Made by a program: the position numbers and the translations under genes. A DNA stretch of 42,187 nt. It comes from Bacteroidales bacterium. GTDB taxonomy: Bacteria > Bacteroidota > Bacteroidia > Bacteroidales > UBA932. Below are positions 1 to 17,572 of this stretch, piece after piece. The first letter of the stretch is position 1. Each line of letters begins with the position of its first letter. The notes beneath the pieces were generated by a model. That model saw only the letters and a list, made by a program, of their open reading frames with translations, was not told the origin of the DNA and did not search any database. The DNA is taken from contig JAGBNC010000002.1 of NCBI GenBank assembly GCA_017634595.1, positions 1-42,187 on the forward strand, in the 5' to 3' direction.

Positions 1-3000
1 GCCGCTCACGAACTTGAACAGGCCCACGTTGGCCTCGGGAAGGAGAGCCTTGTCGGTGCCTTCGGCTACATCGGCGGGGATCTTCTCGGTCACATCCAGG
101 GTGTAGGTGACGGTGAAGTTCTTGCCGTCCAGGGTGCCGCTCTGACGGCCGGGAGTGAACTCCTTGCCGGTCAGGTCGATGTTGGCGCCGAGCTCGGCAT
201 CCTTGGTAGGATCGGCAAGATAGGCCAGGAGCTGGTCGGCGGTCTTGATCACGCCGTCGTCCTGGGAACTGCCTTTGCCGTACATATCATAGTCGAACTT
301 CACATCCTTGATGGCGCTGTACACATTTGCGTCGATGTTATTGTCGAGCAGGTGCTTGTAAAGGCGCATCAAAAGGATGAGCTCACGCATAGGAGAGATG
401 AGTCCCTTATAGCCGGTGAGCATCAGCGATGAATCGTCATTGCCGAACTCCTGGAAGTTGCCGATCATGCCGAGAGGGTTGAATACTCCGGGGATACCCA
501 CCAGACCGCGGACAAGATGTCCGAGGGTTGCCTTGGTGATGACATCGACACCGGCCTCCTTAAGAGGCTCGCCATTATAGGTGACTCCGTCTTCCTCATA
601 CCAGGGGTATTTGCCCCATTTAGCATTGCTTGAAGGCACAGCAGCCACAATTTCAGAGAAGGCCTTGTTGTCGCCAAGAGTATAACCAGGTTTGTTGCGG
701 CTTGTCATCTTGCCAATATAATCCTGACCATCGGTCAGAACCATGTCGAGAAGACCGCGGATAGCGATTTCCCATGCCTGTGCTGAGGTAAACTGAGTAC
801 CTTTCACATTGAGGGTCCAAGGAGTGTACTTAGGATCGTGCTGGTTGCCGGGGTGGTTGTCATAGTCGCCGCCGGTCTTGCCAACGGGGATGAAATGGAC
901 GTTCTCCCAAGCTGTTCCCTTCTCCATAAGGTGCTTGTTCTCAGACTCGACGGTACCTACGGTTGCGGCCCACACGTCAAGACCCTTAACAAATTCCTTG
1001 GCGAAATCCTTCAGCATAATGTCAGCGGAAATACCCTCGCCCCAGAGGTCAGTGCTGACCTTAACTGCACTTATAGCTTCAGCTGTAGTGAGGTTTTTCT
1101 CGACAATCTCCCTGCAGAGGCGGGCAAGCATGATGAGGTTGCGCTCTATGCACACATATCCGTTATAGGTAGTGAGCACGGGATCCGACGTGCGGGGATA
1201 ACCGCAGACGTTGGGCCACTCACCATTGTTCTTAAGATAATTGGTGCAGCGAGTAGCGAAGTTAATGAGCAGATCTACACCGGCTTCTTTCTCCTGAAGA
1301 GGTTCATCATACTCATAGTAAGGGCTGGTTGCCTCCTTGTAAGAGCCGGGCTCGGTGACAGGCTCTGTGACAGCAGCTCCGCCGGCGATGGCAAGCAGTG
1401 AACGCATAGCCATCTCGTGCATCTGAAGCTTGTTATAAGATGTGCCGTTAAGGGTGATAGTAAAGTTCTCGGGAATGAAATGGACATTCTCATGCTTATA
1501 TTCTTTACCGTCACGTGTGAAGCTGACAGTACCTACATTGGTGTCCCATGCATCTGCAGCCTTGGCAAACTCCTTGATGAAGTCAGCAACAGTGGCCTTC
1601 GGAGTCTCGGGGACACCCTGTCCGTACATATCATAGTCGAACTTCACATCCTTGATGGCGCTGTACACATTTGCGTCGATGTTATTGTCGAGCAGGTGCT
1701 TGTAAACGCGCATCATAAGGATGAGCTCACGCATAGGAGAGATGAGTCCCTTATAGCCGTCAAGCATCAGCGATGAGTCGTCGCTTCCGAACTCCTGGAA
1801 GTTGCCGATCATGCCGAGAGGGTTGAATACTCCGGGGATACCCACCAGACCGCGGACAAGGTGTCCGAGAGTAGCCTTGGTGATGACATCGATACCGGCT
1901 TCCTTAAGAGGCTCGCCATTATAGGTGACTCCGTCTTCCTCATACCAAGGGTATTTGCCCCATGTGGCATAGCTGGAAGGAATAACGGTCATGATTTCAG
2001 AGAAGGCCTTGTTGTCACCAAGGGTATAACCAGGCTTGTTGCGGCTGGTCATCTTGGCAATATAACCCTGGCCATCGGTCAGAACCATGTCGAGAAGACC
2101 GCGGACTGCGATTTCCCATGCCTGTGCAGAGGTGAACTGAGTGCCGTTCACGTTGAGGGTCCAAGGAGTGTACTTGGGATCGTGCTGGTTGCCGGGGTGG
2201 TTGTCATAGTCGCCGCCGGTCTTGCCAACGGGGATGAAGTGGACGTTCTCCCATGCGGTACCTTTCTCCATAAGGTGCTTGTTCTCAGACTCGACGGTAC
2301 CTACGGTTGCGGCCCACACGTCAAGACCCTTTACAAACTCCTTAGCGAAATCCTTAAGGGATACGCTGCTGGGATCGACATACTTTGCCTGGGTAACGGC
2401 AATTGCGAGGCCATCGGTCACATTTCCGCCCTTGATGAGGACGGTTCCGGTGCGCTCTTCGCCCTTATTGGCGTCAGCTGAAATAGCAATAGTAGCTGCT
2501 TCGGAAGCACTTCCGCTTGCAGGTTCGATATGGATCCAACTGTCAGATGCAGTAGCGGTCCAGTCTTTCTTGGCAATGAAGGTAGCGTTGGCTGCAGTAC
2601 CTTCGGCGTCGATAGTAACGCTCTTGGTCCTGAGCTCGATGTCAGGCATCTCTACGCCGTAGAGGTCGGTAGAGAACTTGACGTCCTTAACTGCATCATA
2701 GACATTCTCAGTGATGTTGTTGTCAAGCAGATACTTGTAGAAGCGGGCTGCGATGAGCCACATACGCATTGAACTTACGAATCCGTTGACACCCTCTTCA
2801 ACAATGCATTCTGAAGGATCGGTACCGAATATCTGATAGTTACCTATCATTCCAAGAGGATTAATACCTGTAAGGCTCGCAGGAGCGCTCTGACGGGCAA
2901 GGAACCAAGTAGCCAGACGGGCGATCAGATTAGGGCCGATTTCAGTAAGGTTGATGGCGGGACCGTCGATAGTACTCTCATACCAAGGATACTTTCCCCA

Positions 3001-4014
3001 TATATCTTCGACGATGGTAGCAGGGATGGGCTCATTAAAGGCTGCACCATTGCCCATGGTGTGCTCAAACGGGTTCCTATGAGCTTGATACTTAGCCGAT
3101 CCTTCCTTGGTGATCATGTCAACGATACCACGGAGGGCGATACCCCAGGTCTGGGCGGATGTGTAGGTAGTGCCGTCAATGGTAACGGTGAAGTAAGGCT
3201 GATACTTAGGATCATACTGATCTACGCCGTCAACATATGCGCCTCCGGAATGAGGGATAGGCACGAAGTGGACGTTCTGCCATGCGCTGTTGTTGTCGGT
3301 GCAGTGGCTTCCGTCAGCAGAGACAGTACCCACAGTCTTCTCCCAGATGTCCAATATCTGGACAAACTGCTGAGCAAATCCCTTCAGGGTAGCTGCAGCT
3401 GAGAGATAGTCGGTAGAGATTGTCTGGGGAAGGGAGGATGCCTTCTTGTACCCTGCCAGTGCGCGAAGCAGACAGACGGTCAGACGGTTGGTCGAGAACG
3501 CCATAGCCTCGGCGCCCTTGCGCTGGACAAGGACCCTGTTGGGAATGGTGGTGTTCTTGTCCTTCTCGATGTCGGCCACGAAGCGTGTTGCAAGGCTCAC
3601 AAGGTCCTCAGTGCCCTCTTCAAGGGCTGATCCACCGGTAACGGGGATTTCCTTCTGGTCATAGCTGTCACGGTCGGGGTGGGTGGCTGGCTTGTAGTTG
3701 AGTACTACAATGTCATCCTTTTTCCCGTCAGCCAAGAGCGTAAGAGCTTTGGCCAGGGCGTACTGATACTGGGGGGCAGTAAGGGATATCTCACCGGCCT
3801 TGGTGAGAGCTGTTCCCTCCAGCGAGAGAGTCTCGGGAAGTACAGTCTCCTCTTCCCACTTGGCATAAGCTGATGCAGCGGCGTCAATAAGCGCCGACTG
3901 TGTCACCTTGTAAACTGCATTATCTGGATACTCCGGTTCCTTGGTCTGGTTACAGGAGCTCAAGAATGCAGCAGCGGCCAAAGCCGCGGTCAAATACAAT
4001 AAGACTTTCTTCAT
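1..4014 (-). CDS. Giant modular lipoprotein with BACON domain and PMBR-like repeat modules (partial)
   Basis: The start is the ATG at 4012-4014. The frame stays open for 1338 codons and leaves the window, so the C-terminus is missing. The N-terminus is a lipoprotein signal (hydrophobic stretch, then FLSSC), so it is probably surface anchored. Modules in order: unknown N-terminal region; module A about 210-458; a BACON-type beta-sandwich about 459-548; module B 553-805; a shorter divergent module C about 809-1000; module D 1001-1253, almost a copy of B; then the start of what looks like a GLUG/beta-helix region (GTLDGKNFTV, NVGLFKFVSG). Modules contain lines such as TLNVNGTQFTSAQAWEIA and ATRCTNYLKNNGEWPNV, which resemble pseudomurein-binding repeats (PF09373) of methanogens; this is by eye and unproven. 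It is the last gene seen in the locus, 38 bases after the TIM-barrel gene. The likely role is binding a cell-wall glycan. Confidence -1.
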   Translation of the reverse strand, partial: MKKVLLYLTAALAAAAFLSSCNQTKEPEYPDNAVYKVTQSALIDAAASAYAKWEEETVLPETLSLEGTALTKAGEISLTAPQYQYALAKALTLLADGKKDDIVVLNYKPATHPDRDSYDQKEIPVTGGSALEEGTEDLVSLATRFVADIEKDKNTTIPNRVLVQRKGAEAMAFSTNRLTVCLLRALAGYKKASSLPQTISTDYLSAAATLKGFAQQFVQILDIWEKTVGTVSADGSHCTDNNSAWQNVHFVPIPHSGGAYVDGVDQYDPKYQPYFTVTIDGTTYTSAQTWGIALRGIVDMITKEGSAKYQAHRNPFEHTMGNGAAFNEPIPATIVEDIWGKYPWYESTIDGPAINLTEIGPNLIARLATWFLARQSAPASLTGINPLGMIGNYQIFGTDPSECIVEEGVNGFVSSMRMWLIAARFYKYLLDNNITENVYDAVKDVKFSTDLYGVEMPDIELRTKSVTIDAEGTAANATFIAKKDWTATASDSWIHIEPASGSASEAATIAISADANKGEERTGTVLIKGGNVTDGLAIAVTQAKYVDPSSVSLKDFAKEFVKGLDVWAATVGTVESENKHLMEKGTAWENVHFIPVGKTGGDYDNHPGNQHDPKYTPWTLNVNGTQFTSAQAWEIAVRGLLDMVLTDGQGYIAKMTSRNKPGYTLGDNKAFSEIMTVIPSSYATWGKYPWYEEDGVTYNGEPLKEAGIDVITKATLGHLVRGLVGIPGVFNPLGMIGNFQEFGSDDSSLMLDGYKGLISPMRELILMMRVYKHLLDNNIDANVYSAIKDVKFDYDMYGQGVPETPKATVADFIKEFAKAADAWDTNVGTVSFTRDGKEYKHENVHFIPENFTITLNGTSYNKLQMHEMAMRSLLAIAGGAAVTEPVTEPGSYKEATSPYYEYDEPLQEKEAGVDLLINFATRCTNYLKNNGEWPNVCGYPRTSDPVLTTYNGYVCIERNLIMLARLCREIVEKNLTTAEAISAVKVSTDLWGEGISADIMLKDFAKEFVKGLDVWAATVGTVESENKHLMEKGTAWENVHFIPVGKTGGDYDNHPGNQHDPKYTPWTLNVKGTQFTSAQAWEIAIRGLLDMVLTDGQDYIGKMTSRNKPGYTLGDNKAFSEIVAAVPSSNAKWGKYPWYEEDGVTYNGEPLKEAGVDVITKATLGHLVRGLVGIPGVFNPLGMIGNFQEFGNDDSSLMLTGYKGLISPMRELILLMRLYKHLLDNNIDANVYSAIKDVKFDYDMYGKGSSQDDGVIKTADQLLAYLADPTKDAELGANIDLTGKEFTPGRQSGTLDGKNFTVTYTLDVTEKIPADVAEGTDKALLPEANVGLFKFVSG
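276..1014 (-). repeat. Internal duplication, copy 1 (module D)
   Basis: This stretch is nearly identical to 1620-2358 at a constant offset of 1344 bases (448 codons), with no insertion or deletion seen. The two encoded modules differ at about 16 of roughly 246 residues, clustered around SEIVAAVPSSNAKW. The copies are separated by module C, so the unit that duplicated may have been B plus C. Confidence -1.
1620..2358 (-). repeat. Internal duplication, copy 2 (module B)
   Basis: This is the partner of 276-1014. It encodes residues about 553-798 of the giant lipoprotein. The near identity at DNA level suggests recent duplication or gene conversion, and makes this gene prone to recombination and assembly collapse. 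Confidence -1.
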
Positions 4015-4052
4015 CTTGATTTTGGTGTTGGTTAATAATGTAGTGATAGTAA

Positions 4053-5387
4053 TTAATTCAAATCATTGACATCAGGGAAAGTGCCAAGTCCGTAACGGAA
4101 CAGCACTATGCCCGTGCCTCTGGTATCCATGAAAATGTTTATGTCCTTTCGTAAGGCATCAGCATCCATAGGTGTGACGCTCGAATCGTTGCCCATGTAG
4201 GTCTGTATTCCCGACCACATCTTGGCTCCGCCGGAGTTATCTGCAAACCAGTTGGCCACGCTCTTGCAACTTGCGTCGCTAAGGTGGTAACTGTACCTGT
4301 AAATCATGGGCATGAGTATGTGGATATACTGGCCCATAAGCGCAGGACTCTGTCCGTAGTACTGGGTGGAGCTGGGTTCAGGCATAAGGGCCGCGCTGGT
4401 CACGATCCCGGCGCCGAAGCTGTCAGCCACCTCGCGTATCTCGCGGCAGCAGCGGTTAACTGCTCCCACGGCATTTACCTCGGCGGATGGATTGTGCTTA
4501 TAGGCAGTGCCTCCAAAGCGTATGTAGTCAAGATGCAGGCCCTTGACTCCGAATTCCTCAATGTAGCGCCTTGCATTATTGCGGATACGCTCGAATACTT
4601 CTTCTTTGTACTTGTTATTAGCGTCGTCGATGGGATTCTCCCATCCTCCGTTATAAAAGCACTGAAGCCAGGCGTGAATGGTCCAGCCCATGTCTTCAGC
4701 CACACGCATGAACTCAATGGTCTTTCTCTTGCTGTTGGGGTGGAACGCGGCATAATTGAGAAGTATGTGCCTATATCCCAGGGAGTAAAGATTCTTAAGG
4801 GATGCATAGTTGTCAGCCGACATAGAAGCGATATGGCTGCTCCATGCCCAGATGGCCGTCGGCTTGGTGGCATCGACATCGAAAACTTCGTTGGGTCTGT
4901 CGGGACTGGCGTAAGGGAGTTTCTTCCACTCCTGCCCGCCGTCGGGTATGCGCTGCCACGAGCCACGCTCCGTAAGAGCCTCTGGGGTGATGTCGTCGCG
5001 CACGAACGTGTCCGTTGCTATTTCCTTGGTGCCCAGGCGCAACTCGAAAGGAGCATCTGAAGACACACCAGTGTACAAAGATTCATCGACCGTGCTCAAT
5101 ACCAGGCGGGCCCCGGGCTCAAGCACCCCGGTGGGAGATGCTATCTCGCGCCCGTTGAAATACTCGTCAGTCACGAAAAGGCCCACGCCGTCGAGTTTTA
5201 CCGCTTCGGAGCCGGAGTTGTAGATCTCCACCCAGCTCTCAGCGTCGGCCGTCTCTTCGTGCACCGATACTTCATTGATAACCAGCCCCTTGTAATTGTC
5301 CACAGCTTCGGGACCTTGGGTCTGATTGCAGGAGGCCGCCACCAACAGGCACGCGGATATCAGCAATGTGGATTCATAAAATCTCAT
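4053..5387 (-). CDS. Lipoprotein with lamin-tail domain and glycoside-hydrolase-like TIM barrel
   Basis: The 444-residue protein has a lipoprotein signal (LLVAASC). A lamin-tail (LTD) beta-sandwich follows at about residues 34-165 (LVINEVSVHE, WVEIYNSGS). The rest is a TIM barrel of the hypothetical glycoside hydrolase type, with GLHLDYIRFGGTAY, GIVTSAALMPEP, ILMPMIYRYSY, MWSGIQTY and a closing GTGIVLFRYGLGTF. The Asp of HLDYIRF is the best candidate catalytic residue. From memory, this barrel with the same landmark motifs occurs in methanogen surface proteins that also carry pseudomurein-binding repeats. It is translationally coupled to murQ: its ATG overlaps the murQ stop (ATGA). The likely role is hydrolysis or binding of a cell-wall glycan outside the outer membrane; the substrate is unknown. 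Confidence -1.
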   Translation of the reverse strand: MRFYESTLLISACLLVAASCNQTQGPEAVDNYKGLVINEVSVHEETADAESWVEIYNSGSEAVKLDGVGLFVTDEYFNGREIASPTGVLEPGARLVLSTVDESLYTGVSSDAPFELRLGTKEIATDTFVRDDITPEALTERGSWQRIPDGGQEWKKLPYASPDRPNEVFDVDATKPTAIWAWSSHIASMSADNYASLKNLYSLGYRHILLNYAAFHPNSKRKTIEFMRVAEDMGWTIHAWLQCFYNGGWENPIDDANNKYKEEVFERIRNNARRYIEEFGVKGLHLDYIRFGGTAYKHNPSAEVNAVGAVNRCCREIREVADSFGAGIVTSAALMPEPSSTQYYGQSPALMGQYIHILMPMIYRYSYHLSDASCKSVANWFADNSGGAKMWSGIQTYMGNDSSVTPMDADALRKDINIFMDTRGTGIVLFRYGLGTFPDVNDLN

Positions 5388-6211
5388 AATAAACCTTGTT
5401 GCTTAAGGTACTCTTCCGCCTTAACCAAACCGCCGGTCTTCTTGATCACTTCCTCACAGTACTCGTAGCTGAGCTGAGGGTTACGCTCCACCATGGTGCG
5501 GGTAAGACGGTCGATAACCTTGTTGTTGATGAGGTTGGCACATACCATACGGTTGCCCTGCACACGGCCCAGGCGTACCATGATGGTGGTGCTGATCATG
5601 TCGCAGAGGAGTTTCTGGGAGGTTCCTGACTTCATGCGGGTGCTGCCGGTGATGAACTCGGGGCCCATGACTACCTCGATGGGATAATCTACCCAGTCCG
5701 AAATGGGGGAACCGGGGTTGTTGCAAATGCTTCCGCAAGGGATTCCATGTTCCTTGCAAGCCTTCATGGCCGCCAGCACATAGGGAGTGTTGCCGCTGGC
5801 CGAAATACCTACTACTATATCTTTAGGGGTGATGTGGTGTTTGTCGCGGAGGGTTCTCCATCCTTCGTCCACATCGTCTTCTGCCTCTTCGAGATCAAGG
5901 ACCAGATTCTCGTTGCCGCCTGCCAGCACAGCCTGCCAGATTTCAGGATCTACGCCGTACGTATTGGGGACCTCTAGTACATCGAGAACGCCAAGTTTGC
6001 CGCCAGTTCCGGCGCCAAGCCAGAAGAAGCGTCCGCCGGCGCGGAGCTGTGTTTCAATTGCTGTACAAAGCTTTTCGATGTCGGGAAGTACCTTCTCGAT
6101 GGCCAGGGCCACTTTCTTGTCTTCCGTGTTAATGTCATGCAGCAGTTCTGCAACGGATTTGGTTTCGAGATGGTCGTACAACGACGGCTGTTCTGTTAAT
6201 CTTACGCTCAT
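5384..6211 (-). CDS. murQ: N-acetylmuramic acid 6-phosphate etherase (MurQ)
   Basis: MurQ is a cytoplasmic SIS-fold enzyme that cleaves the lactyl ether of MurNAc-6-phosphate to give GlcNAc-6-phosphate and D-lactate. At 275 residues it is a little shorter than E. coli MurQ. The sugar-phosphate site is GAGTGGKLG (about 66-74), and the family signature EFITGSTRMKSGTSQK is present. E80 (DVLEVP) and E111 (EEAEDD) are spaced 31 residues apart, like the catalytic pair E83/E114 of E. coli. The usual GTSGRLG is changed to GTGGKLG, so this may be a subfamily. It sits between genes for exported glycan-degrading proteins and overlaps the next gene by ATGA, tying the locus to MurNAc-containing material. 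No MurNAc kinase or transporter is seen in the window. Confidence -1.
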   Translation of the reverse strand: MSVRLTEQPSLYDHLETKSVAELLHDINTEDKKVALAIEKVLPDIEKLCTAIETQLRAGGRFFWLGAGTGGKLGVLDVLEVPNTYGVDPEIWQAVLAGGNENLVLDLEEAEDDVDEGWRTLRDKHHITPKDIVVGISASGNTPYVLAAMKACKEHGIPCGSICNNPGSPISDWVDYPIEVVMGPEFITGSTRMKSGTSQKLLCDMISTTIMVRLGRVQGNRMVCANLINNKVIDRLTRTMVERNPQLSYEYCEEVIKKTGGLVKAEEYLKQQGLL

Positions 6212-6266
6212 TTCCTAATATGCTTTAATAATTTTAAAATAATACCTTATAACTATTTGCTTTTTT

Positions 6267-6341
6267 AAACAGAGAGACGGTGCCCTCCGGGGCCCATAAA
6301 ACATGGGGAAAAGGGCCCCGGAGGGCACCGTCTCTTTGTTT
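6267..6341. repeat. Long inverted repeat between GH20 and murQ
   Basis: Arms at 6267-6295 and 6313-6341 pair over 29 bases with a single mismatch (core GGTGCCCTCCGGGGCCC), with a 17-base loop. The hairpin begins at the stop codon of the upstream GH20 gene. It lacks a clear T-run on the minus strand, so it could be a strong intrinsic-like terminator, an mRNA-stabilising 3' stem that lowers downstream expression, or a repetitive extragenic palindrome. The rest of this 128-base gap is AT-rich with no clear promoter. Confidence -1.
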
Positions 6342-8181
6342 AAAACTCTTTATATTTAATGTTTCCTATCATTTTGCCGTTACGGAATGCCGCAGCGGTA
6401 ACACGCTGCTGGCGGTTGATCGCAAAGGGGCCTTCATAGACCGGCGATGCGGACGTGGGAGCGCTGCCGTCAAGGGTGTAGCGTATCTCCGAACCGGGCG
6501 CATCGATGCTCATAGTCACCACCTTGCTGTGTTCGGTATCCTTATGGAACTCGATAAAGGGATCCCAGAAGTTGCGGCAGTAGCCTACGTGCATGCGGTC
6601 AAGCCTGTCGAGGTGAGTTTCGAGCCTCTGAGTGAAGTCTTCCCAGTCTTTGCCGGCCTTGGTCCAGCCCGACTCCGCGATGGCGCACATGCGCGGCCAG
6701 GCCATGTATTCTACACGGGCAGGCGTGGGCATGTACTCCGTCCACACGCAGCCCTCTACACCTATTATATACCTCTGCTCCTCGGGGCTGAGCACTTCGG
6801 GCACAGGATTGTACTCGTACATGGTACGCAGAAGCGTGGGGCCTCCCATAGCCAGCGGTTCGCTGTCCGGGTCACCCTGCCAATAGTCGAGGTAGTACTT
6901 GGGATAAGGAGACATGACCACCTCGTGATGCTGCTGGGCTGCCTTGATGCCGCCTTCTTCGCCGAGCCACGACATGACCTTGGCATTGGGGGCAAGGCCT
7001 CCCTGAAGAATCTCGTCCCAGCCGATGATCTGGCGGCCCTTGGAGTTGATGTACTTCTCCATGCGCTGTATAAACCAGCTCTGGAGCTCGAATTCGTCTT
7101 TGAGGCCAAGCTTCTTGATAAGGGCCTGGCAATGCGGACAGCGCTGCCAGCTGGCCTTGGGACACTCGTCGCCACCGATATGTATGAGTTCGGAAGGGAA
7201 GAGTTCGATGACCTCATCAAACACGTCCTCAAGGAACTTGAAGGTCTCTTCCTTGGGACAGTAAACCTGCCGGAATATACCCCAGCGGGTAGCGGTCTCA
7301 TAATGATCCTCAAGGCCGCAGCTTAGCTCCGGATAACAGGAGATAGCCGCAAGTGAGTGACCGGGGATCTCAATCTCAGGAATGATGGTCACATAGCGCT
7401 CGGCGGCATATTTCACCAGGTCCTTGATCTCTTCCTGACTGTAGTAACCGCCGTAAGGCTTGCCGTCGTACACGCCCGATGCAAGCGAGCCCACAACGGT
7501 CTCTTTGCGCCACTGTCCCTTCTCGGTGAGCAGCGGATATTTTTTGATCTCAATGCGCCAGCCCTGGTCTTCGGTAAGGTGCCAATGAAAGCGGTTTACC
7601 TTATGAAGGGCCATGAGGTCGATGTAGCGCTTGAGGAATGGAATGTCAAAGAAGTGCAGACAGCAGTCCAGGTGCATCCCCCTGTAAGGGAAACGCGGCT
7701 CGTCTTCGATTTCGCAGCAAGGGACGGCCCATTGCACGGAAGACTGTACGCTGTCGGAGAAAATCGCGGCCGGAAGCATCTGCAGAAGGGTCTGCAGAGC
7801 ATAGAACGCGCCGGCCCCGCTGCCATATTCAACCTTGATCATGTCGGGGCTGACACTGAGGCTGTAAGCCTCGTCTTTAAGCCCGGCGTCAAGCCAGAAA
7901 ATGCCCTTTTCCCCTCCGTGGGTAAGCGGATCGTCGCTTACAACAGGAAGGGTAAAGCCCGCGGCTTTCTTCAGCTGGTCGTTGAAGAAGCCTACTGTGC
8001 GCAGAACTGCCGAATCGCCGGTCTCGACGAAAAGCGTAGTTTTACGGTCGATGCGGAAAGTGCCATCTGTCAGCTGCAGGAAGGCCGGCTTTGGTATGAT
8101 TTGCGGCTTTGAGGCCTCCTGTACTTTAGCGCAAGAGGCCAACAGCAATGCCGCAATAACAATATAATATACTCTTTTCAC
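6340..8181 (-). CDS. Beta-N-acetylhexosaminidase, GH20, lipoprotein
   Basis: The 613-residue exo-acting enzyme releases terminal GlcNAc or GalNAc from glycans by substrate-assisted catalysis. The start is a GTG at 8179-8181, giving the lipoprotein signal LLLASC. A GH20b-type N-terminal domain comes first, then the GH20 barrel with HWHLTEDQGWRIEIKKYP, IPEIEIPGHS and the catalytic pair D338-E339 in HIGGDECPK. A chitobiase C-terminal-like domain (IRYTLDGSAPTSASPVYEG) ends the protein. It is the paralogue of the adjacent GH20 gene but has its own lipobox. It lies between two long inverted repeats, within the SusC/SusD-led locus. Acting on GlcNAc-MurNAc fragments is an inference from murQ next to it. 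Confidence -1.
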   Translation of the reverse strand: MKRVYYIVIAALLLASCAKVQEASKPQIIPKPAFLQLTDGTFRIDRKTTLFVETGDSAVLRTVGFFNDQLKKAAGFTLPVVSDDPLTHGGEKGIFWLDAGLKDEAYSLSVSPDMIKVEYGSGAGAFYALQTLLQMLPAAIFSDSVQSSVQWAVPCCEIEDEPRFPYRGMHLDCCLHFFDIPFLKRYIDLMALHKVNRFHWHLTEDQGWRIEIKKYPLLTEKGQWRKETVVGSLASGVYDGKPYGGYYSQEEIKDLVKYAAERYVTIIPEIEIPGHSLAAISCYPELSCGLEDHYETATRWGIFRQVYCPKEETFKFLEDVFDEVIELFPSELIHIGGDECPKASWQRCPHCQALIKKLGLKDEFELQSWFIQRMEKYINSKGRQIIGWDEILQGGLAPNAKVMSWLGEEGGIKAAQQHHEVVMSPYPKYYLDYWQGDPDSEPLAMGGPTLLRTMYEYNPVPEVLSPEEQRYIIGVEGCVWTEYMPTPARVEYMAWPRMCAIAESGWTKAGKDWEDFTQRLETHLDRLDRMHVGYCRNFWDPFIEFHKDTEHSKVVTMSIDAPGSEIRYTLDGSAPTSASPVYEGPFAINRQQRVTAAAFRNGKMIGNIKYKEF

Positions 8182-8196
8182 TATTAATCTGTTGAC

Positions 8197-8312
8197 TGTT
8201 CAGTGCCGGCAGGCTCCGGAAAAGTCGCTTCGCGACCCCTCCCACTTCGTGGGCCCCTCCCTCTTATGATGCCGAGGGTGGCACATTTTCCGGAGCCTGC
8301 CGGCACTGAACA
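8197..8312. repeat. Nested inverted-repeat element between the two GH20 genes
   Basis: The outer arms 8197-8223 and 8286-8312 are perfect 27-base complements. Inside lie two small hairpins with TTC loops and 5-bp stems: GTCGCTTCGCGAC (8224-8236) and CCCACTTCGTGGG (8241-8253). The fold would be a multi-branched junction. It fills almost the entire gap between the co-oriented GH20 genes. It may be a non-autonomous repeat of the REP/MITE kind or a structured operon RNA. No target-site duplication or transposase is visible. Confidence -1.
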
Positions 8313-8313
8313 T

Positions 8314-10128: not shown

Positions 10129-11474
10129 AGAGCTTCGTTTATGGTTTTATCTATGGCCTCGGAGTACACTGCCGGCATGGTCTCAGACAGAGGGTACGGG
10201 GCCTTAATATAAATGTGCATTTGTTCGATTTCATACTCATAGCCTTTGCGGTACTCGTAAGCGTGCGCAGAGGGGAGGTAAGAATTCTGGCCGTTGGTGT
10301 ATCCGGCAAAGATAACGGTCTTGCCGGGGAAATGCTTCCTGGCCTCCATCTGGTATTCGCAGAAAGGCTCGCCCTGGCTGAAGAAGAATATGATTCCGTT
10401 GATGTTGACCGCTCCGAGGGTGAAGTCGAGCGTATTATGCACCTTGCCTTCAGCAAAGCGGCTGAGAATCAACTCCTTCCACCCGAGGACATCTTCCTTC
10501 CAGCTCCAGTTGACCGAGAGCTCGTCGCTCCACTTGCCTATCAGTTCGGCAGCGTGGGCCTCAACAGCCTCTGGAGTCACTTGAGCGATACGGAACGGCA
10601 GTCCCACAGTATCATTGACCACTTTGAATTCACCGGTGGGGCGCACCTTTTCGAACTTCACCTTCAGAAGTGAATCGGCCAGGCAACGTCCGCACTCTTC
10701 GGCATACTCTTTCATTTTGGGCCCTTCTGCAGGATCCATGTTTCCGGCAGCGCCGGTGAGCTGGAACACGTCGCCGCCCCATGCTTCCTTAAGTATCTGC
10801 GAATACACACCCGGATAATCGGACGATACCAGCAGGCTCTTGGGACCCATGCAGACAGGGTGGCAGGCCAGATTGACCAGCGACACGATAGGTTTGCCCT
10901 TGGTATCAAGGAAACGGACCACATACACGTCGTGGTCCACGGGACCGGTCTTCTCGCAGCGATTGCCGTTGATACTTGTCTGGGCCTTGCCGACCTCCAT
11001 CTTGAACGGACGGAAGGCAGCCTCGTCGGTGATGGTCTTCACTGCATTCTCCACCAGCACCTTGTGCAGACGCTCTTTATGGGAATAATTGCTCCCGCCG
11101 GGCTCCGCTCTCCAGCCTCCGTTGCGCGGAGCTGAGTGGGTGTGGATACAATGCATGAAAATGCGGTCGAGGGGGAGTCCGCTCTGCGCGGAAATCTCCT
11201 TGCGCCATTCCAGCGACAGGTCGGGAGAAATCTCCATAAGGTCGTTGGAGATGATACACACCTTGTCTGCACCATTACCTATCACCAGACAATGGGTGTT
11301 AAGCGGGAGATGCAACTCGGTGGAGAGGTCGTTGCGTGCGGCAAATCCGGCGAGCATGGTATGCTCTTCAGGAGTAGTGGAAATGTCGGCAGCAGAGTAA
11401 TTGCACACCAGCTTTCCGTCCCTTGAACAAGCGACGGAAAGCAGTGCAGCAAATATTAAAAGCTTGAATTTCAT
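10125..11474 (-). CDS. Ceramidase-fold (neutral/alkaline ceramidase N-terminal domain) hydrolase, lipoprotein
   Basis: The 449-residue protein has a lipobox (LLSVAC). The fold is recognised from FMHCIHTHSAPRNGG, LVNLACHPVCMGP, SSDYPGVYSQ and FAGYTNGQNSYLP, which match the N-terminal catalytic domain of neutral ceramidases (PF04734), including the zinc-site histidines. True ceramidases carry GDxSPN with the catalytic Ser; here that place reads GAAGNMDP, so the Ser is not evident and ceramide is an unlikely substrate. Bacteroidota have many such proteins in carbohydrate loci, of unknown reaction. It begins 2 bases after the susD stop and overlaps the following GH20. A deacylase or amidase acting on an N-acyl group or peptide link of the glycan is possible but speculative. 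Confidence -1.
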   Translation of the reverse strand: MKFKLLIFAALLSVACSRDGKLVCNYSAADISTTPEEHTMLAGFAARNDLSTELHLPLNTHCLVIGNGADKVCIISNDLMEISPDLSLEWRKEISAQSGLPLDRIFMHCIHTHSAPRNGGWRAEPGGSNYSHKERLHKVLVENAVKTITDEAAFRPFKMEVGKAQTSINGNRCEKTGPVDHDVYVVRFLDTKGKPIVSLVNLACHPVCMGPKSLLVSSDYPGVYSQILKEAWGGDVFQLTGAAGNMDPAEGPKMKEYAEECGRCLADSLLKVKFEKVRPTGEFKVVNDTVGLPFRIAQVTPEAVEAHAAELIGKWSDELSVNWSWKEDVLGWKELILSRFAEGKVHNTLDFTLGAVNINGIIFFFSQGEPFCEYQMEARKHFPGKTVIFAGYTNGQNSYLPSAHAYEYRKGYEYEIEQMHIYIKAPYPLSETMPAVYSEAIDKTINEAL

Positions 11475-11476
11475 GA

Positions 11477-13459
11477 TCAGTTAGGATATCCAGGGTTCTG
11501 GAGAAGTTTTCCACCGCTCTTGGTGATTTCATTGCGGGGAATAGGCATAAGGTAGTTACGTCCGTCCTCGGGGAAATACCTTGGAGTAGGGTTCTGGTTG
11601 AGGATGCAGTCACCGTAATCGATGGTGTATTCCTTACCGAGCCACTTGTAAGTAATAATGTATTCGATAGGCTTGCCGTAACGAGGGTCGCCAGTATAAC
11701 CTGAATAGGTGTAGGTCTTGCTGGCGTCCATATTCGCCCAATAATAATTGGTGTTGTTCTTCGACTCATCGTACAGGCGGGCCACACGGTAAACGGTATC
11801 AACCTGTGAACCTTTCTGGATGACCATGGTCCTGGCGCTGCCCAGAGGCACATTCTCATAGAAATCAGCCAACTTCCAGCGGCGCAGGTCGAAGTAACGG
11901 AATGTCTCTGCATAGAGCTCCACACGGCGTTCGTTGACCAGACGTTGGAAGAGGAATTCACCACTCTCGGTAACGGGCGGCATATTCACGTCGGGACGCT
12001 GACGGATCTTGTTGATGTATTCGCGGCAGATGTCCTCCTTGCCCAGCATATATGCTGCCTCGGCATAGTTGAGATACATTTCAGCAAGACGGAACCATGG
12101 ATACAGCAAGCTGCCGGTCTGTGATTCGGAAATGTAGGATGTAGGAACATACCACTTGTAGAGCTCAAGTCCGCCGTGGTTGCCGGAAGCCATATGCTTT
12201 GCCCTTGAGGTGAAACCGGGCTCTTTAGGATTCTTGCTCACGAGGAAGTCATCCTTGGTCATGCCGTCATAGAGATAATACAGAAGCAGCTCGTCAGCCT
12301 GGGTTTTGCCATCCTTACCGGTGTTTTCGTAAGGGTAGAAGGGAGCGGCTATGCAATAGTAGAAGCGAGGGTCGCGGTTGGCATAAGGATGCTTCTCATC
12401 ATATCCCGAACCTTCCTCGAACCACTTCTTGCCATTAGCCATCTCGAAGTCGATCTGCGCGGCCTGAGTAGGATGGAAGGCTTCCCATCCATTGAAATAC
12501 TCCACAGTGTAAAGTAGCTGAGCCTTCTTGGTGTAGTTATCGTTGGCATCGGATGTGGCTACGAAGTATTTTGCCCAAATAAGCTCGGGAGAATCAACGT
12601 CTTTCCATATACCGTCGTAGGTGTCATCCAAAGAGTAAGCACCTTCAACATCGGCACGGTCCACAATGGCCTTGGCCGCGTCGAAAGCACGCTGCCACTT
12701 GTCCATGCTATAAGCGCCGCGGAAGATGCCTCCCTCGGGCTTTTCAGGGTCGTTAAACAACTTGGATGCAGCAACCAGGGTAAGCCTGCTGCGGAGAGCC
12801 AGGACTACGTCCTTGTTGATGCGGCCCTTCGGAGTGGAGTTCTTGTCGGGAAGCAAAGCATAGGCTTCATCAAGATCCTTAAGGATAAAGTCCACGCAGG
12901 TATCGAAGTCTGAGCGCTCGACGGTGAAGTCGTCATCGAGTTTGTGAGGCTTGGATATAATAGGCACGCCTGCATAGCGCTGAATGAGCAGGAAATAGGA
13001 CCATGCACGCAGGAAGTACACCTCGCCGCAGAGGCGGGCCTTGGCATCAGCGCTCATGGCGGATCCCTTATCATCTATGTACTGCAGGAAGTAATTCATC
13101 CTGTATATCCATTCGTATGTGCGGTTCCAGATGTTGAGGATGGTGGTACGGGTATTGTGTGCCTGACCGCCTTCCTTGATATACATCACGTTGTCAGGGT
13201 CCATATAGCCGGAAGCTATATAGCGGGTGGAAGTGCCTCCGTAGCGGAAGTAACCTTCGTCTGTGATACATCCCACATTGCCTTCCTGGAACGGGTCGGG
13301 AAGCACAGTATAGAGTGCGTTGACATACGCCTCCGCAAGAGCGTCGCTGTTGAATACGGCATCCTCGCTGAGTTTGTTCAGAGGCTTCTTGTCAAGAAAA
13401 GAGTCGTTGCAGGCGACAAGGGCAAGAGCGGCGGCGATGATTATATATATCTTTTTCAT
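11477..13459 (-). CDS. susD: SusD/RagB-like outer-membrane glycan-binding lipoprotein
   Basis: The 660-residue surface lipoprotein captures oligosaccharide and delivers it to the SusC-like channel. The lipobox is ALVAC, followed by the usual NDSFLDKKPLNKLSEDAVF start. TPR-like helices are suggested in the middle (RAWSYFLLIQRYAGVPII), and the C-terminal family signature is LMPIPRNEITKSGGKLLQNP. Its start lies 6 bases after the SusC stop. The SusC/SusD pairing defines the locus as a PUL. No hybrid two-component regulator or ECF sigma/anti-sigma pair is seen next to it in the window. Confidence -1.
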   Translation of the reverse strand: MKKIYIIIAAALALVACNDSFLDKKPLNKLSEDAVFNSDALAEAYVNALYTVLPDPFQEGNVGCITDEGYFRYGGTSTRYIASGYMDPDNVMYIKEGGQAHNTRTTILNIWNRTYEWIYRMNYFLQYIDDKGSAMSADAKARLCGEVYFLRAWSYFLLIQRYAGVPIISKPHKLDDDFTVERSDFDTCVDFILKDLDEAYALLPDKNSTPKGRINKDVVLALRSRLTLVAASKLFNDPEKPEGGIFRGAYSMDKWQRAFDAAKAIVDRADVEGAYSLDDTYDGIWKDVDSPELIWAKYFVATSDANDNYTKKAQLLYTVEYFNGWEAFHPTQAAQIDFEMANGKKWFEEGSGYDEKHPYANRDPRFYYCIAAPFYPYENTGKDGKTQADELLLYYLYDGMTKDDFLVSKNPKEPGFTSRAKHMASGNHGGLELYKWYVPTSYISESQTGSLLYPWFRLAEMYLNYAEAAYMLGKEDICREYINKIRQRPDVNMPPVTESGEFLFQRLVNERRVELYAETFRYFDLRRWKLADFYENVPLGSARTMVIQKGSQVDTVYRVARLYDESKNNTNYYWANMDASKTYTYSGYTGDPRYGKPIEYIITYKWLGKEYTIDYGDCILNQNPTPRYFPEDGRNYLMPIPRNEITKSGGKLLQNPGYPN

Positions 13460-13465
13460 AATCCC

Positions 13466-16400
13466 TTAGAATGTAAGTTTAACACCGGTATTGACAATAC
13501 GCATCTGCGGATATGTCTGGTAGCCTTCATCGGAGGTTTCCGGATCGACGAACTTGAGTTCGGAGAAGGTCAGCAAGTTGTAACCTGCAATGTAGAAGCG
13601 CAGGCCGCGCACACCGAGTCTGGGAGCGAATTTGCTTACAGGCAGTGTGTAGCCGATCTCGAGGTTCTTAAGACGCAGGAAAGCTGCGTTGCGGGAGTAG
13701 TAGTCGGAGCGGTTGACGCCGCCGTTGCTGACGGTAGAACCGATACGAGGATAATTGGAATTAGTGTTATCCTTGGTCCAGGCGTTGGTGGCCGCGAACC
13801 AGTCTAGGTTGCCGGACACAGGGTCCATCATAGGAGAGTAGTAATAGCGCGCAAGGCCCTGTCCCTGAAGCAACATGGAGAAATCGAAGTTCTTCCATGA
13901 TGCGTCGAAGCTCAGACCAAAGACTATCTGAGGGACTGCAGTGTACTGCAAGCGGTAGCGGTCAAGGTTGGTGATCTTGTTGTCTCCGTCGAGGTCTTCA
14001 AACCAGAAGTCGCCAAGGGTTGCACCGCTCATCTGCAGATGCTTGTCCAGATCTTCCTGGGTCTTGTTGATGCCTCCCACTTTGTAATAAAGCGATGAGC
14101 CCATAGGCATGCCCTCAAGCTTCATGTAATCGTGTCCTTCGGGCCAAGGGGCCTCGTCCATGTAAACGATGGTGTTCTTGGCGTACATGAAGTTACCGTT
14201 GATCCTGTAGCGAAGCTCGCCTCCGAGAATCTTGTTCTCATGGTTGAGCTGAAGCTCTATACCTCTGTTCTTGACGATACCTATATTTTCGTCAGGCAGG
14301 TTATTGGTAAGACCTGTATAATAAGGTATGGAGGCGTTGCGAGAGCAAAGGATGTTGGAACGGTGGGTGTAGAAGGCTTCCAGTTCCCATCCGAACAAAC
14401 CGTTGCGGATGTTACCGTCAATACCTACGTTCCAAGTCTTGGCAACTTCCCAAGTCACATTGGGATTAGGGATTGTTCCGGGGATGATGAAGTTGACCTC
14501 CTTGTTATCGAACATGGTCTTGTAGGAGTATGCGGATGTGTATCCGTAGGTGGTCATGTACTGGAACGCTTCAATCTGGTCGTTACCCTGCTCACCGTAA
14601 GAAGCACGGATCTTGAGGTTGGTCAGCCAAGGCCAGTTGTCCTTGATGAACGGTTCTTCGGAGATTCGCCAACCGGCAGAAACACCAGGGAAGATACCCC
14701 AGCGCTTCCCTGCGGGGAAGTTTTCACTACCGTCGAAACGGACAAGTGCCTGGATCATGTATTTACTCTTGTAGTCATAACCAACACGGGTGAAGAATGA
14801 ACGGCGTGCAGTCTCTTGTGCGTAGCCGTTGATCGTGTACCAGCTCTTGTCGGCGGTACCGGCGAAGAACTCATCCAGGATGTCGGATGAATACTGGTTG
14901 ATGCCTGCGCGGAAGTAGTCAAGCCTGAAGGAATTCTGCTCGAAGCCGGCGAGGGCAGTTACATGGTGGCCGGAGAAGTCGCGGTCGTAGTTGATGTTGG
15001 TATTGATCGCAACATTGGTGGTATGCCTCTGATACTCATGGAGTACAGGGGTAGGCCAATAGGAGTTGGAACGCTCCTCGAAGAGCTCGGTGATCTCATC
15101 GTAGCTGAAGTAGTTCCAGTTCTGCTGCCAGTTCTTGTTGAATGTGCTCACCACGTCGTATGCCAGATGACCGTTGACGCTCAGGCCCTTGGTTATACTG
15201 CTCAGGTCCCATGCTGCGGTGAAAGTGGTATTGATGGTGTTGATGGTAGTACGGTCGTAACCAGTCAGGTCCTGTACGAGCACGGCAGGGTTGGTGCCGC
15301 CGCGAAGCAGCCTGCGGTCGCCAAGTCCTTGTGATGCCCCGGAACCGGCGGGATAATATGCAGCTCCAGTAGGCCTCATGCGCATGGCTATGTAGAAGAT
15401 ACCATAGGAGTCACTCGGGAACGCAGAGTAGTTCTTGTGCTGCTGGCGGGCATTGATGTCAACGCCGAGCTTGAGGCTCTTGGTCACCTGGATATCCAAG
15501 TTGGAGCGGAGATTGAACTGGTTGTAGTTAGTAGCACTTTCGTAGTAGATACCGTCCTGATACTGACCGTTGAACTGTACGAAATAAGCAGCTTTCTCCG
15601 AACCTCCGTTGATGCTCACGCCATACTTGTGCTGCGCTGAGAGGGGCTTGATGATTTCATGAAGCCAGTCAGTATTGGGGTAGCTGATAGGGTCGTCCTG
15701 GTCAATGTAGTGCTGAATCTGGGTGTCGGTGTACACGGGAGCGCCGCCGCTGATGGCAAGGCTCTTGTTGTAAGCCGTAGTGTAGAGCACAGCGTCTGCA
15801 AGCTTGACCATCCTGGTAGGGCTCTGCAGACCAAGGTCGTAGTTAAAGGTCACTGTAGGGGCCTCATTGTACTTGCCTCGCTTTGTGGTGACCAGAATAA
15901 CACCGTTAGCCGAACGTGCACCGTAGATGGCTGCGGATGCATCTTTCAGTACGTTGATGCTCTCGATTTCGTCACCAGTCAAACGTCCGAACTCATCGCC
16001 TCGTCCCTGGACGCCGTCGATAATGATAAGCGGGCTGTTGTCGCCGAGAGTACTCCGGCCGCGAATAAACATGACCGCATCGTCTCTACCGGGCTCACCG
16101 GAACGGTTGTTGACGATAACACCGGACATACGGCCTGCAAGACCCTGGGAGAGGTTCACTGAGGAGTTCTTTACCAATTCCTCACCAGTTGTACTGGCGA
16201 CCGAACCTGTAAGGGTCAACTTGCGCTGGTTGCCATAGCCGATTGCCACAGCCTCTTCGAGAAGCATCTTGTCTTCGTTAAGCACGAAGTCAAGGGTAGT
16301 CTGGTCGCTGCCGAGTTTGACGGACTGTTCTTCATAGCCGAGCAAGCTAGCCGTGACCGTAGCTCCGGGAGCCACGTTGCCGAGTGAATAATTGCCTTTT

Positions 16401-16585
16401 TCGTCTGTCATGGCCCCGTTTTGGGTACCCTTGACGAGAACCATGGCTCCAACGAGCGCTTCGCCATTGGTATCTTTGACAGATCCTTGCAAGCGAATTC
16501 GACTCTGTGACGAAGCCTCAAACGACGGTAATGCCGTCATAATCAGCATCGAAAAGAGAATTAGAATAGTTCTGAATTTTTTCAT
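13466..16585 (-). CDS. susC: SusC-like TonB-dependent outer-membrane transporter
   Basis: The protein has 1039 residues from the ATG at 16583-16585. An upstream in-frame ATG at 16615 overlaps the -7 promoter element, so the shorter start is preferred. After the signal peptide comes a carboxypeptidase-regulatory-like domain (RLQGSVKDTNGEALVGAMVLVKGT is its start), then the plug (LSQGLAGRMSGVIV, IYGARSANGVILVTTKRG) and a beta-barrel ending in Phe (VNTGVKLTF). It imports oligosaccharides across the outer membrane, powered by TonB. It is the first gene of the minus-strand locus and diverges from msrA. Confidence -1.
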   Translation of the reverse strand: MKKFRTILILFSMLIMTALPSFEASSQSRIRLQGSVKDTNGEALVGAMVLVKGTQNGAMTDEKGNYSLGNVAPGATVTASLLGYEEQSVKLGSDQTTLDFVLNEDKMLLEEAVAIGYGNQRKLTLTGSVASTTGEELVKNSSVNLSQGLAGRMSGVIVNNRSGEPGRDDAVMFIRGRSTLGDNSPLIIIDGVQGRGDEFGRLTGDEIESINVLKDASAAIYGARSANGVILVTTKRGKYNEAPTVTFNYDLGLQSPTRMVKLADAVLYTTAYNKSLAISGGAPVYTDTQIQHYIDQDDPISYPNTDWLHEIIKPLSAQHKYGVSINGGSEKAAYFVQFNGQYQDGIYYESATNYNQFNLRSNLDIQVTKSLKLGVDINARQQHKNYSAFPSDSYGIFYIAMRMRPTGAAYYPAGSGASQGLGDRRLLRGGTNPAVLVQDLTGYDRTTINTINTTFTAAWDLSSITKGLSVNGHLAYDVVSTFNKNWQQNWNYFSYDEITELFEERSNSYWPTPVLHEYQRHTTNVAINTNINYDRDFSGHHVTALAGFEQNSFRLDYFRAGINQYSSDILDEFFAGTADKSWYTINGYAQETARRSFFTRVGYDYKSKYMIQALVRFDGSENFPAGKRWGIFPGVSAGWRISEEPFIKDNWPWLTNLKIRASYGEQGNDQIEAFQYMTTYGYTSAYSYKTMFDNKEVNFIIPGTIPNPNVTWEVAKTWNVGIDGNIRNGLFGWELEAFYTHRSNILCSRNASIPYYTGLTNNLPDENIGIVKNRGIELQLNHENKILGGELRYRINGNFMYAKNTIVYMDEAPWPEGHDYMKLEGMPMGSSLYYKVGGINKTQEDLDKHLQMSGATLGDFWFEDLDGDNKITNLDRYRLQYTAVPQIVFGLSFDASWKNFDFSMLLQGQGLARYYYSPMMDPVSGNLDWFAATNAWTKDNTNSNYPRIGSTVSNGGVNRSDYYSRNAAFLRLKNLEIGYTLPVSKFAPRLGVRGLRFYIAGYNLLTFSELKFVDPETSDEGYQTYPQMRIVNTGVKLTF

Positions 16586-16612
16586 TTGGTTGGATATTAG
16601 CTTTCTAATCTT

Positions 16613-16620
16613 CAAATATA
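16613..16620 (-). promoter_or_regulatory. -7 promoter element for the PUL
   Basis: TATATTTG on the minus strand matches the Bacteroidota -7 consensus TAnnTTTG and lies 27 bases before the chosen susC start. The -33 box is weak. It decides the susC start, because an ATG at 16615 would fall inside it. Confidence -1.
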
Positions 16621-16666: not shown

Positions 16667-17572
16667 ATGAATAAGTCATTGTTTTTCGCCGGCGGTTGCT
16701 TCTGGGGCACCGAGCACTTCTTCAAAGGAATAGACGGAGTAGTACAGACTGCTCCGGGCTATGCCAATGGTTCCGTTGACGATCCGAGCTATGAACAGGT
16801 ATATACCGACACCACCGGCTATGCCGAGACGGTAAAAGTCGATTACAACCCTTCAAGGATCAGCCCGGGCAAGCTGGTGAAGCTGTTCTTTGCCAGCATC
16901 GACCCCCTGTCGCTCAACCGCCAGGGGCACGACTGCGGTACACGCTACAGGACCGGTGTGTATTATGATGACCCGTCCGTACTGCCTGAAATCAGGAAGG
17001 AATTCGCAGCTCTGGAGAGGCGCATCGGCGCCAAACCCGTCACCGAGCTCCTTCCCCTGCAGAACTTCTGGCCGGCGGAGGAAAGGCACCGCGACTATCT
17101 GGACAAAAACCCGGAAGGTTACTGCCACCTACCCCTCTCAGTATTTAGGTATCTGCGTCTGTATCAAGACCTTGGGCTAATGCTCGAAGGAGAGTCCGAC
17201 CCTGTGGCGCGTCAGGCCCAGACGGCGGCGCTCATAGCCGAAAGGATGAAGTTTTTCTGGACCGGATTCTACCGTGTCATGAACGGCCATCTGGTGCTAG
17301 GACCTTTCCAGGGGCCTCCAGCATGCTTCCGTATTGCCTACGGAAAAGGAGTGTGCGGCACCGCCTGGGAGCAGCGGCGCACCGTAGTGGTGTCTGACGT
17401 CGAAAAATTCCCCGGTCACATTGCATGCAGCAGTCTGTCCCGCTCCGAGATAGTGGTGCCGGTGATACGGGACGGAGTAGTCACCGCAGTGCTGGACATA
17501 GACAGCACAAGCGTCGGCACCTTTGACGGCACCGACGCAGTGTGGCTTGAGTTAATATGTGATCTTCTTTAG
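16667..17572 (+). CDS. msrA: Fused MsrA - free-methionine-(R)-sulfoxide reductase
   Basis: The 301-residue protein joins two repair enzymes. Residues 1 to about 165 are MsrA, which reduces methionine-S-sulfoxide, with GGCFWGTE (nucleophile C11) and GHDCGTRYRTGVYY. From about 170 the sequence is a GAF-fold free-Met-R-sulfoxide reductase (LEGESDPVARQAQTAALIAE, LVLGPFQGPPACFRI, FPGHIACSSLSRSEIVVPV). Its cysteines C220, C230 and C254 have spacings of 10 and 24, the same as C84/C94/C118 of E. coli fRMsr. The fusion would reduce both stereoisomers of free Met sulfoxide in the cytoplasm. MsrA-MsrB fusions are the familiar arrangement; this pairing is less so. No C-terminal resolving Cys of the MsrA kind is obvious. 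Confidence -1.
   Translation: MNKSLFFAGGCFWGTEHFFKGIDGVVQTAPGYANGSVDDPSYEQVYTDTTGYAETVKVDYNPSRISPGKLVKLFFASIDPLSLNRQGHDCGTRYRTGVYYDDPSVLPEIRKEFAALERRIGAKPVTELLPLQNFWPAEERHRDYLDKNPEGYCHLPLSVFRYLRLYQDLGLMLEGESDPVARQAQTAALIAERMKFFWTGFYRVMNGHLVLGPFQGPPACFRIAYGKGVCGTAWEQRRTVVVSDVEKFPGHIACSSLSRSEIVVPVIRDGVVTAVLDIDSTSVGTFDGTDAVWLELICDLL

Follow-up and report, generated by a model that had tools for sequence, protein, structure and literature searches.

A SusCD locus with its own type of murQ and an altered GH20 active site in Bacteroidales: a candidate polysaccharide utilization locus for peptidoglycan fragments

What does a bacterium harvest through a SusCD locus that also encodes MurQ, an etherase family specific to N-acetylmuramic acid (MurNAc) 6-phosphate? 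The stretch of DNA that raises this question, hereafter the window, is the entire 42,187-nucleotide contig JAGBNC010000002.1 (C18) of a Bacteroidales bacterium (GCA_017634595.1; 2.59 Mb in 36 contigs). Bases 1-16615 of its minus strand carry an eight-gene run from susC to a giant repeat lipoprotein gene. We conclude that this run is probably a polysaccharide utilization locus (PUL) for MurNAc-containing wall fragments, most likely those of bacterial peptidoglycan. Four features fit MurNAc: the loss of an arginine in one of its two GH20 glycoside hydrolases (GH20b), a MurK-family kinase found with the locus, a clade-specific murQ and the fold of a TIM-barrel lipoprotein.

A conserved gene run around murQ

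The first-pass annotation of the window, made from its letters only, had claimed eight minus-strand genes, and all of them are present in the order claimed. They are listed here with a ninth gene from another contig of the source genome.

13466..16615, minus strand: susC, TonB-dependent outer-membrane transporter (TIGR04056, 854 bits against a cut-off of 368)
11477..13459, minus strand: susD, glycan-binding outer-membrane lipoprotein (PF07980, E 1.8e-47; PF14322, E 1.1e-30)
10125..11474, minus strand: ceramidase-like zinc hydrolase lipoprotein, proposed muramoyl-peptide amidase (PF04734, E 2.4e-7, below cut-off)
8314..10128, minus strand: GH20a, beta-N-acetylhexosaminidase with R161 kept, proposed remover of N-acetylglucosamine (GlcNAc) (PF00728, E 1.5e-103)
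6340..8181, minus strand: GH20b, GTG start, with L175 and L406, proposed exo-N-acetylmuramidase (PF00728, E 2.5e-120)
5384..6211, minus strand: murQ of the PUL-type clade, MurNAc-6-phosphate etherase family (NF003915, 286.7 bits against a cut-off of 168)
4053..5387, minus strand: lamin-tail and TIM-barrel lipoprotein (TIM lipoprotein), proposed surface wall-glycan glycosidase with a GHL10-like fold
1..4014, minus strand, 3' end beyond base 1: giant repeat lipoprotein with a BACON domain (PF13004, E 2.2e-11), proposed wall-binding surface protein
L151:269-1336, contig C32 of the source genome: transglutaminase-like (TG) lipoprotein with repeats like pseudomurein-binding (PMB) repeats

The SusC-family protein and the adjacent SusD score over their cut-offs, and two GH20 genes lie in the same run, which makes this a SusCD-type PUL. 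The susC start is more likely the ATG at 16585 than the TTG at 16615, and the giant gene is cut by the contig end because the window is the whole contig. From susC to the giant gene, the intergenic gaps are 6, 2, -4, 132, 128, -4 and 38 bases. The ATGA coupling that had been claimed for the run, murQ included, therefore holds for two 4-base overlaps, one between the ceramidase-like gene and GH20a (10125-10128) and one between murQ and the TIM lipoprotein gene (5384-5387), but not between GH20b and murQ, which lie 128 bases apart. Upstream of susC, a divergent gene (16667-17572) fuses MsrA and GAF domains.

To find further loci, we scanned a degenerate pattern for the window-type MurQ loop over 84,980 species genomes and obtained 64 stretches of at most 8 kb, with two isolates' genomes represented twice. 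Their record titles name Bacteroidales, Bacteroidia, Bacteroidetes or a member family or genus, and three are strain records rather than metagenome-assembled genomes. GH20b lies within 600 bases upstream of murQ in 46 of the 51 loci that have at least 900 bases of upstream DNA. A second collection, 149 genomes of the family with the source genome included, contains window-type murQ in 10 genomes, at 61-100% identity to the murQ of the window; in all nine relatives, the fetched murQ stretch (16-20 kb) includes the ceramidase-like gene together with one or more GH20 genes, and a GH20 directly adjoins murQ in eight of them. The counts from the two collections are not independent, since several genomes of the sample and loci of the scan have identical MurQ rows. 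Close homologues of SusC and SusD occur in four relatives (G114, G096, G118 and G107), and a different pair occurs in four others (G034, G052, G067 and G140). Among the strains, Alistipes sp. An66 carries on one contig susC, susD, the ceramidase-like gene, GH20a, GH20b, murQ, a giant-like gene, the TG and TIM lipoprotein genes, murK, a major facilitator superfamily (MFS) gene and a C45 gene, in that order. The loci of Hallella multisaccharivorax DSM 17128 and Prevotella sp. KH2C16 span susC to the MFS gene, and no surface lipoprotein was matched within the 20 kb fetched for each. With 46 of 51 loci, nine of nine relatives and three strain records in agreement, the gene order proposed in the first-pass annotation recurs well beyond the window, and the run is a conserved module.

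The module is also visible as gene fusions and as co-occurrence. Three of the nine relatives (G034, G052 and G067) encode the ceramidase-like protein, GH20a and GH20b in a single frame of 1532-1535 amino acids, and G118 and G107 encode the ceramidase-like protein and GH20a in one frame (1013 and 1026 amino acids, in the two genomes); domains fused in this way are argued to share one substrate. The ten best GH20b matches among the 149 family genomes fall in exactly the ten genomes with window-type murQ, a coincidence with a chance of 9e-16 were the genomes independent, which is only a rough guide because they are related.

Several neighbouring genes were also seen. In the Hallella and Prevotella loci, genes that look by eye like anti-sigma and extracytoplasmic function (ECF) sigma factors stand upstream of susC (L178:16241-17943 and L179:16060-17805). 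The G034 locus extends into GH18+GHL10, C45+C1 peptidase and N-formylglutamate-amidohydrolase-like genes (L035:3197-9097), and matches to the first two turn up again in several other loci.

The GH20 pair and the two kinds of murQ

The -1 arginine of GH20 enzymes contacts O3/O4 of the -1 sugar, and in lacto-N-biosidase the -1 GlcNAc bears a 3-O sugar. In the window, GH20a keeps this arginine (R161), whereas GH20b has leucine in its place (L175). Copies in the 64 loci were assigned to GH20a or GH20b by best match, independently of the -1 residue; arginine was found in all 32 readable GH20a copies (10 of 42 do not cover the position), and leucine (38) or serine (8) in all 46 readable GH20b copies (8 of 54 do not cover it). 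Control GH20s, 28 from class genomes and two others of the source genome, keep the arginine in 29 of 30 cases, the remaining one not being alignable. It is likewise kept in 18 of 18 close non-PUL GH20s of the family, namely the next 20 matches under the GH20b group minus one GH20a and one unfetched (G143), and these 18 are the family GH20s for which the -1 residue was read. A second arginine, that of the SWRG motif, is also lost from GH20b, with leucine (L406 in the window) in 56 of 56 rows, duplicates from both collections included; at this position, 23 of 29 controls and 17 of 18 close relatives have arginine. Arg162 of SpHex, the equivalent residue, is described as conserved throughout the known GH20 hexosaminidases, with Gln190 as its counterpart in lacto-N-biosidase (PMC4449183, in the part available). 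Since lacto-N-biosidase, with its 3-O-substituted -1 GlcNAc, also lacks the arginine, the loss in GH20b fits a 3-O-substituted N-acetylhexosamine (HexNAc) such as MurNAc.

GH20b is a GH20 by its Pfam domains and D-E pair, although it lacks the -1 arginine of an ordinary hexosaminidase. We considered and rejected the idea that it is a dead enzyme: no loss is seen in the H-x-G-G-D-E motif, the tryptophans or WTE, and the catalytic D-E pair is present in 100% of 56 rows. Its nearest solved relative is the beta-hexosaminidase 6q63 (E 2e-163), and lacto-N-biosidase 4h04 matches only at E 5e-9. From these residues we lean, if only slightly, towards predicting that GH20b is an exo-N-acetylmuramidase. 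The earlier view that both GH20s remove terminal GlcNAc or N-acetylgalactosamine thus probably fails for GH20b, which has lost the arginine. In the open-licence literature, we recognized among the matches listed no PUL with GH20 and murQ, and no GH20 exo-muramidase.

The murQ of the window matches the MurQ entry 4s12 of the PDB at E 2.3e-56. A second murQ in the source genome, on contig C14, adjoins a MurK-like kinase gene and scores higher with NF003915 (361 versus 286 bits). Many other family genomes have only a murQ type at about 41-51% identity, and the remainder have weak SIS-domain matches or none. In a tree of 78 rows, a branch with 100/100 support separates 69 window-type from nine other-type sequences; by the program's own warnings, long branches meet at this split and the bootstrap had not settled. 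The two types differ in motif, GxGTGG(K/R)L...E(V/L)PNTYG in the window type versus GAGTSGRLG...EIPPT(Y/F)G in the other. The glutamates of E(V/L)PNTYG and EExEDD, which we take to be the MurQ active-site residues (E83 and E114 in Escherichia coli), are present in 10 of 10 aligned PUL-type sequences. The murQ of the window is placed in a subgroup of the MurQ family and would act as an etherase.

The possibility that this murQ is simply the shared recycling gene was rejected on three grounds: a second MurQ-family gene is present in the source genome and in the three strain genomes searched, the two clades separate at 100/100 (with the long-branch warning above), and the nine other-type loci lack the remaining window genes, none of whose proteins was matched at E 1e-8 in these stretches of 5-20 kb each.

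The ceramidase-like protein, surface lipoproteins and kinase

Ceramidases are zinc amidases, and the first-pass annotation had assigned a ceramidase fold to the third gene of the run. The single protein falls short of PF04734 (30.2 against a cut-off of 32.1 bits) and is placed in a related family rather than classed as a ceramidase, but a 21-sequence profile (A2) does find two neutral ceramidases (E 3.9e-19 for 2zws, E 6e-18 for 4wgk). H111, H113, H205, E369 and Y399 are invariant among the 21 sequences and satisfy the pattern H, H, E, Y, presumably that of the neutral-ceramidase zinc ligands. From its position and its fusions, we tentatively guess that the protein may be a muramoyl-peptide amidase, at somewhat less than even confidence.

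Fold comparison of the TIM lipoprotein ties Cwp19, at 16% identity over the aligned part, with PgaB, and the structure matches under rank 8 are mostly GH18-type barrels. Cwp19 is described as a GHL10 lytic transglycosylase (PMC6016235, in the part available). No match of the TIM lipoprotein to PF02638 (GHL10) was listed up to E 10, and its sequence gave nothing convincing against the PDB. The giant lipoprotein gene contains two 300-nucleotide direct repeats, 95% identical (278-577 and 1622-1921), which are a recent internal duplication. Its N-terminal profile (A4) matches that of the TG lipoprotein (A3) with Prob 99.4 and E 8.8e-22, and the pseudomurein-binding repeat protein of Methanobacterium virus Drs3 with Prob 92.9 and E 3.7e-7. 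Judging by these profiles, its modules appear to resemble pseudomurein-binding repeats; PMBR was not matched in the Pfam search, and the giant and TIM lipoproteins were unmatched in phage records.

The TG lipoprotein lies off the window and is closer to the viral protein, with Prob 100 and E 2.5e-39 over 257 columns against the Drs3 protein. PF01841 is matched over its cut-off, and a C280/C281, H313, D328 triad is invariant in eight rows. PMBR (PF09373) reaches at best 21.1 bits against a cut-off of 24.9. The PDB match judged to be real was 3isr, a transglutaminase-like protein (E 1.9e-6), and matches to designed repeat proteins were taken as chance. Within the family sample, the TG lipoprotein is restricted to genomes with the locus (five of the 10 with PUL-type murQ); none of 394 other class genomes yielded it, and a scan of viral contigs with its profile gave 38 pattern matches, with zero confirmed. 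In its PMB-like repeats and C-H-D triad, it is like the pseudomurein endoisopeptidases PeiW and PeiP as described in the available part of PMC2989375; unlike them, it is a bacterial lipoprotein with PMBR under cut-off and Peptidase_C71 (PF12386) unmatched in the four TG lipoproteins scanned.

Near murQ in the 64 loci, a kinase gene occurs in 17 and an MFS gene in 10. The best solved relatives of the kinase are 1zxo and 1zbs, followed by four chains including 8ow9 (E 2e-56 to 4e-53), which appear to be Tannerella MurK/K1058 entries; the orthologue at L038:14846-15712 matches 8ow9, titled 'Putative novel MurNAc kinase', at E 4.1e-53. The MFS protein is nearest to NagP, far under the NagP cut-off and slightly over that of GluP. 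In the source genome, kinase and MFS genes adjoin on contig C32, 72% and 54% identical to those of G118. Before the kinase stand an open frame truncated where the contig begins, the TG lipoprotein gene and a second TIM lipoprotein gene; after the MFS gene come C45, Glt symporter, M20 + C1 and S46 genes. Given the synteny with relatives, C32 probably continues the window.

Proposed pathway and alternative substrates

Read as a peptidoglycan PUL, the locus would work as follows. Surface lipoproteins, namely the PMB-like giant binder, the GHL10-like glycosidase and the TG isopeptidase encoded off the window, would capture and trim wall debris, and SusCD would take the trimmed pieces in. In the periplasm, the ceramidase-like hydrolase would strip peptide from MurNAc, and GH20a and GH20b would alternate in removing non-reducing GlcNAc and MurNAc, respectively. 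The MFS permease would import the sugars, the MurK-like kinase would form MurNAc-6-phosphate, and MurQ would convert this to lactate and GlcNAc-6-phosphate. Every activity, compartment and substrate in this scheme is proposed from the sequences.

This division of labor has precedents. The Bacillus ybb operon (AmiE-NagZ-NamZ-MurP-MurQ) likewise splits the work among an amidase, a GlcNAc remover, a MurNAc remover, uptake and MurQ, but its families differ except for MurQ and it is without SusCD. Closer in taxonomy, Tannerella forsythia, also of the Bacteroidales, uses the etherase MurQ and the kinase MurK for exogenous MurNAc; unlike the window-type locus with its MFS protein, it has MurT as transporter, and no SusCD, GH20 or ceramidase-like gene is named for its cluster in the available parts of the sources (PMC7670621, PMC10465942). 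The first-pass annotation had suggested that a peptidoglycan PUL would be new or little described. A murein PUL with SusCD pairs and murQ has already been published for the Urechidicola symbiont of Idas mussels (PMC10199937), so the kind of system is not wholly new. The enzymes differ: that PUL has GH3, GH18, GH171, GH10, AmpG and AmpD, and a GH20 pair or ceramidase-like gene goes unmentioned in the part of the source available.

Gene order, the arginine loss in GH20b, the kinase, the murQ clade and the fold of the TIM lipoprotein support the peptidoglycan PUL that had been put forward, and a number of observations weigh against it. The murQ of the window does not reach the cut-off of the equivalog model TIGR00274 (236.1 against 302 bits), and since its loop also reads GTGG instead of GTSG, the substrate of PUL-type MurQ may differ. 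The GH20b group is set off by a small score gap, its lowest four members scoring 652-737 bits and the next match, from G007, 646; the G007 enzyme keeps the -1 arginine, and because the gap is small, the group is delimited chiefly by the arginine and the locus. No substrate is known for the two top solved relatives of the kinase, 1zxo and 1zbs. Before GFILGDE, 17 of the 18 PUL-type kinase rows have DSL or DSC (the last is unreadable), compared with S133-P134-L135, placed by residue count, in the lactyl pocket of MurK, where the paralogue K1058 differs as well (PMC10465942, in the part available); this sequence difference settles nothing, neither proving nor excluding MurNAc. PgaB matches the TIM lipoprotein as well as Cwp19 does, methanogen-virus proteins are the nearest phage-record matches of the TG lipoprotein, and C32 is joined to the window by synteny alone. 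Among the loci, five of 51 are without an upstream GH20b (L062, L063, L078, L089 and L095). L089 is the locus of G096, in which murQ points away and the other genes lie beyond a divergent susCD, so murQ is not always co-transcribed. G003 has a single GH20 and no adjacent SusCD, with a susC-like gene about 5 kb downstream. By eye, murQ in L062, L063, L078 and L095 stands beside genes resembling those for aminotransferases of the DegT type, oxidoreductases and ceramidase-like proteins, as well as nagA and nagB, which raises the question of another MurQ-dependent pathway.

Which other substrates could explain the locus? Methanogens inhabit the rumen, and rumen or omasum is named in 17 of the 64 record titles. 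The locus or its surface module might target methanogen pseudomurein, with the giant lipoprotein binding, the TG lipoprotein cutting isopeptide cross-links, and the GH20s removing GlcNAc and talosaminuronic acid. The homology of the TG lipoprotein to the Drs3 protein keeps archaeal walls as a rival target, as do the relation of the giant lipoprotein to both, a PMBR match in L099 (E 3e-4, below cut-off), and the ordinary peptidase families and Glt symporter downstream on C32; in pseudomurein, the amino acids are L-forms only (PMC11915815, in the part available). The archaeal caution of the first-pass annotation has substance in the TG lipoprotein, encoded off the window, and in the giant lipoprotein, which is related to the N-terminal part of the TG lipoprotein. 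Nevertheless, talosaminuronic acid replaces MurNAc in pseudomurein (same source), which would leave murQ and the MurK-type kinase idle. The TG lipoprotein is present in only half of the PUL-murQ genomes, compared with murQ and GH20b in all 10, and the four TG lipoproteins scanned lack Peptidase_C71. Moreover, PMB domains are reported to bind lysozyme-treated bacterial spheroplasts as well (PMC3124540, in the part available). We consider pseudomurein unlikely and, as sole target, not the first choice, while retaining it as a rival. It is similarly unlikely that, in gut Bacteroidales, the surface module shares stock with methanogen-virus lysins and that the same SusCD, in a locus centered on a new GH20 activity, lets the bacteria feed on pseudomurein walls of methanogens in addition to murein.

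GH92 enzymes often act on host N-glycans, and a GH92 gene lies on the opposite strand 1.8 kb past susC (18391-21033; its F5/8-type C match is weak and under the cut-off). Together with the lack of any prior tie between the ceramidase-like family and walls, and the replacement of the arginine in lacto-N-biosidase by Gln190 (PMC4449183, in the part available), this would suit a PUL for host or diet glycans, in which murQ would be carried along as a passenger, with GH20b lacto-N-biosidase-like or otherwise active on the 3-O-substituted GlcNAc of mucin. We regard this as quite unlikely, given that GH20b is near 6q63 and far from 4h04, that the 10 of 149 genomes with GH20b are the very ones with window-type murQ, and that fucosidase, sialidase, sulfatase and galactosidase families were unmatched among the locus genes scanned. 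All arguments for a 3-O-lactyl HexNAc apply equally to capsules or O-antigens containing lactyl-ether amino sugars, which would need no peptides. The peptide-acting families nearby (transglutaminase-like, C45, C1, M20 and S46) and the wall-type surface lipoproteins make such a target very unlikely.

Animal guts contain a large pool of sugar in the form of peptidoglycan, and the literature turned up little on the harvest of external peptidoglycan by Bacteroidota. As a peptidoglycan PUL, the locus offers three named strains in which to test such harvest. It also implies two activities that would be new, a GH20 acting as exo-N-acetylmuramidase and a wall amidase of ceramidase fold, and the loss of the -1 arginine serves as a one-residue marker for locating such loci. 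If the surface module does reach pseudomurein, the consumption of methanogen walls by bacteria would matter for methane in the rumen.

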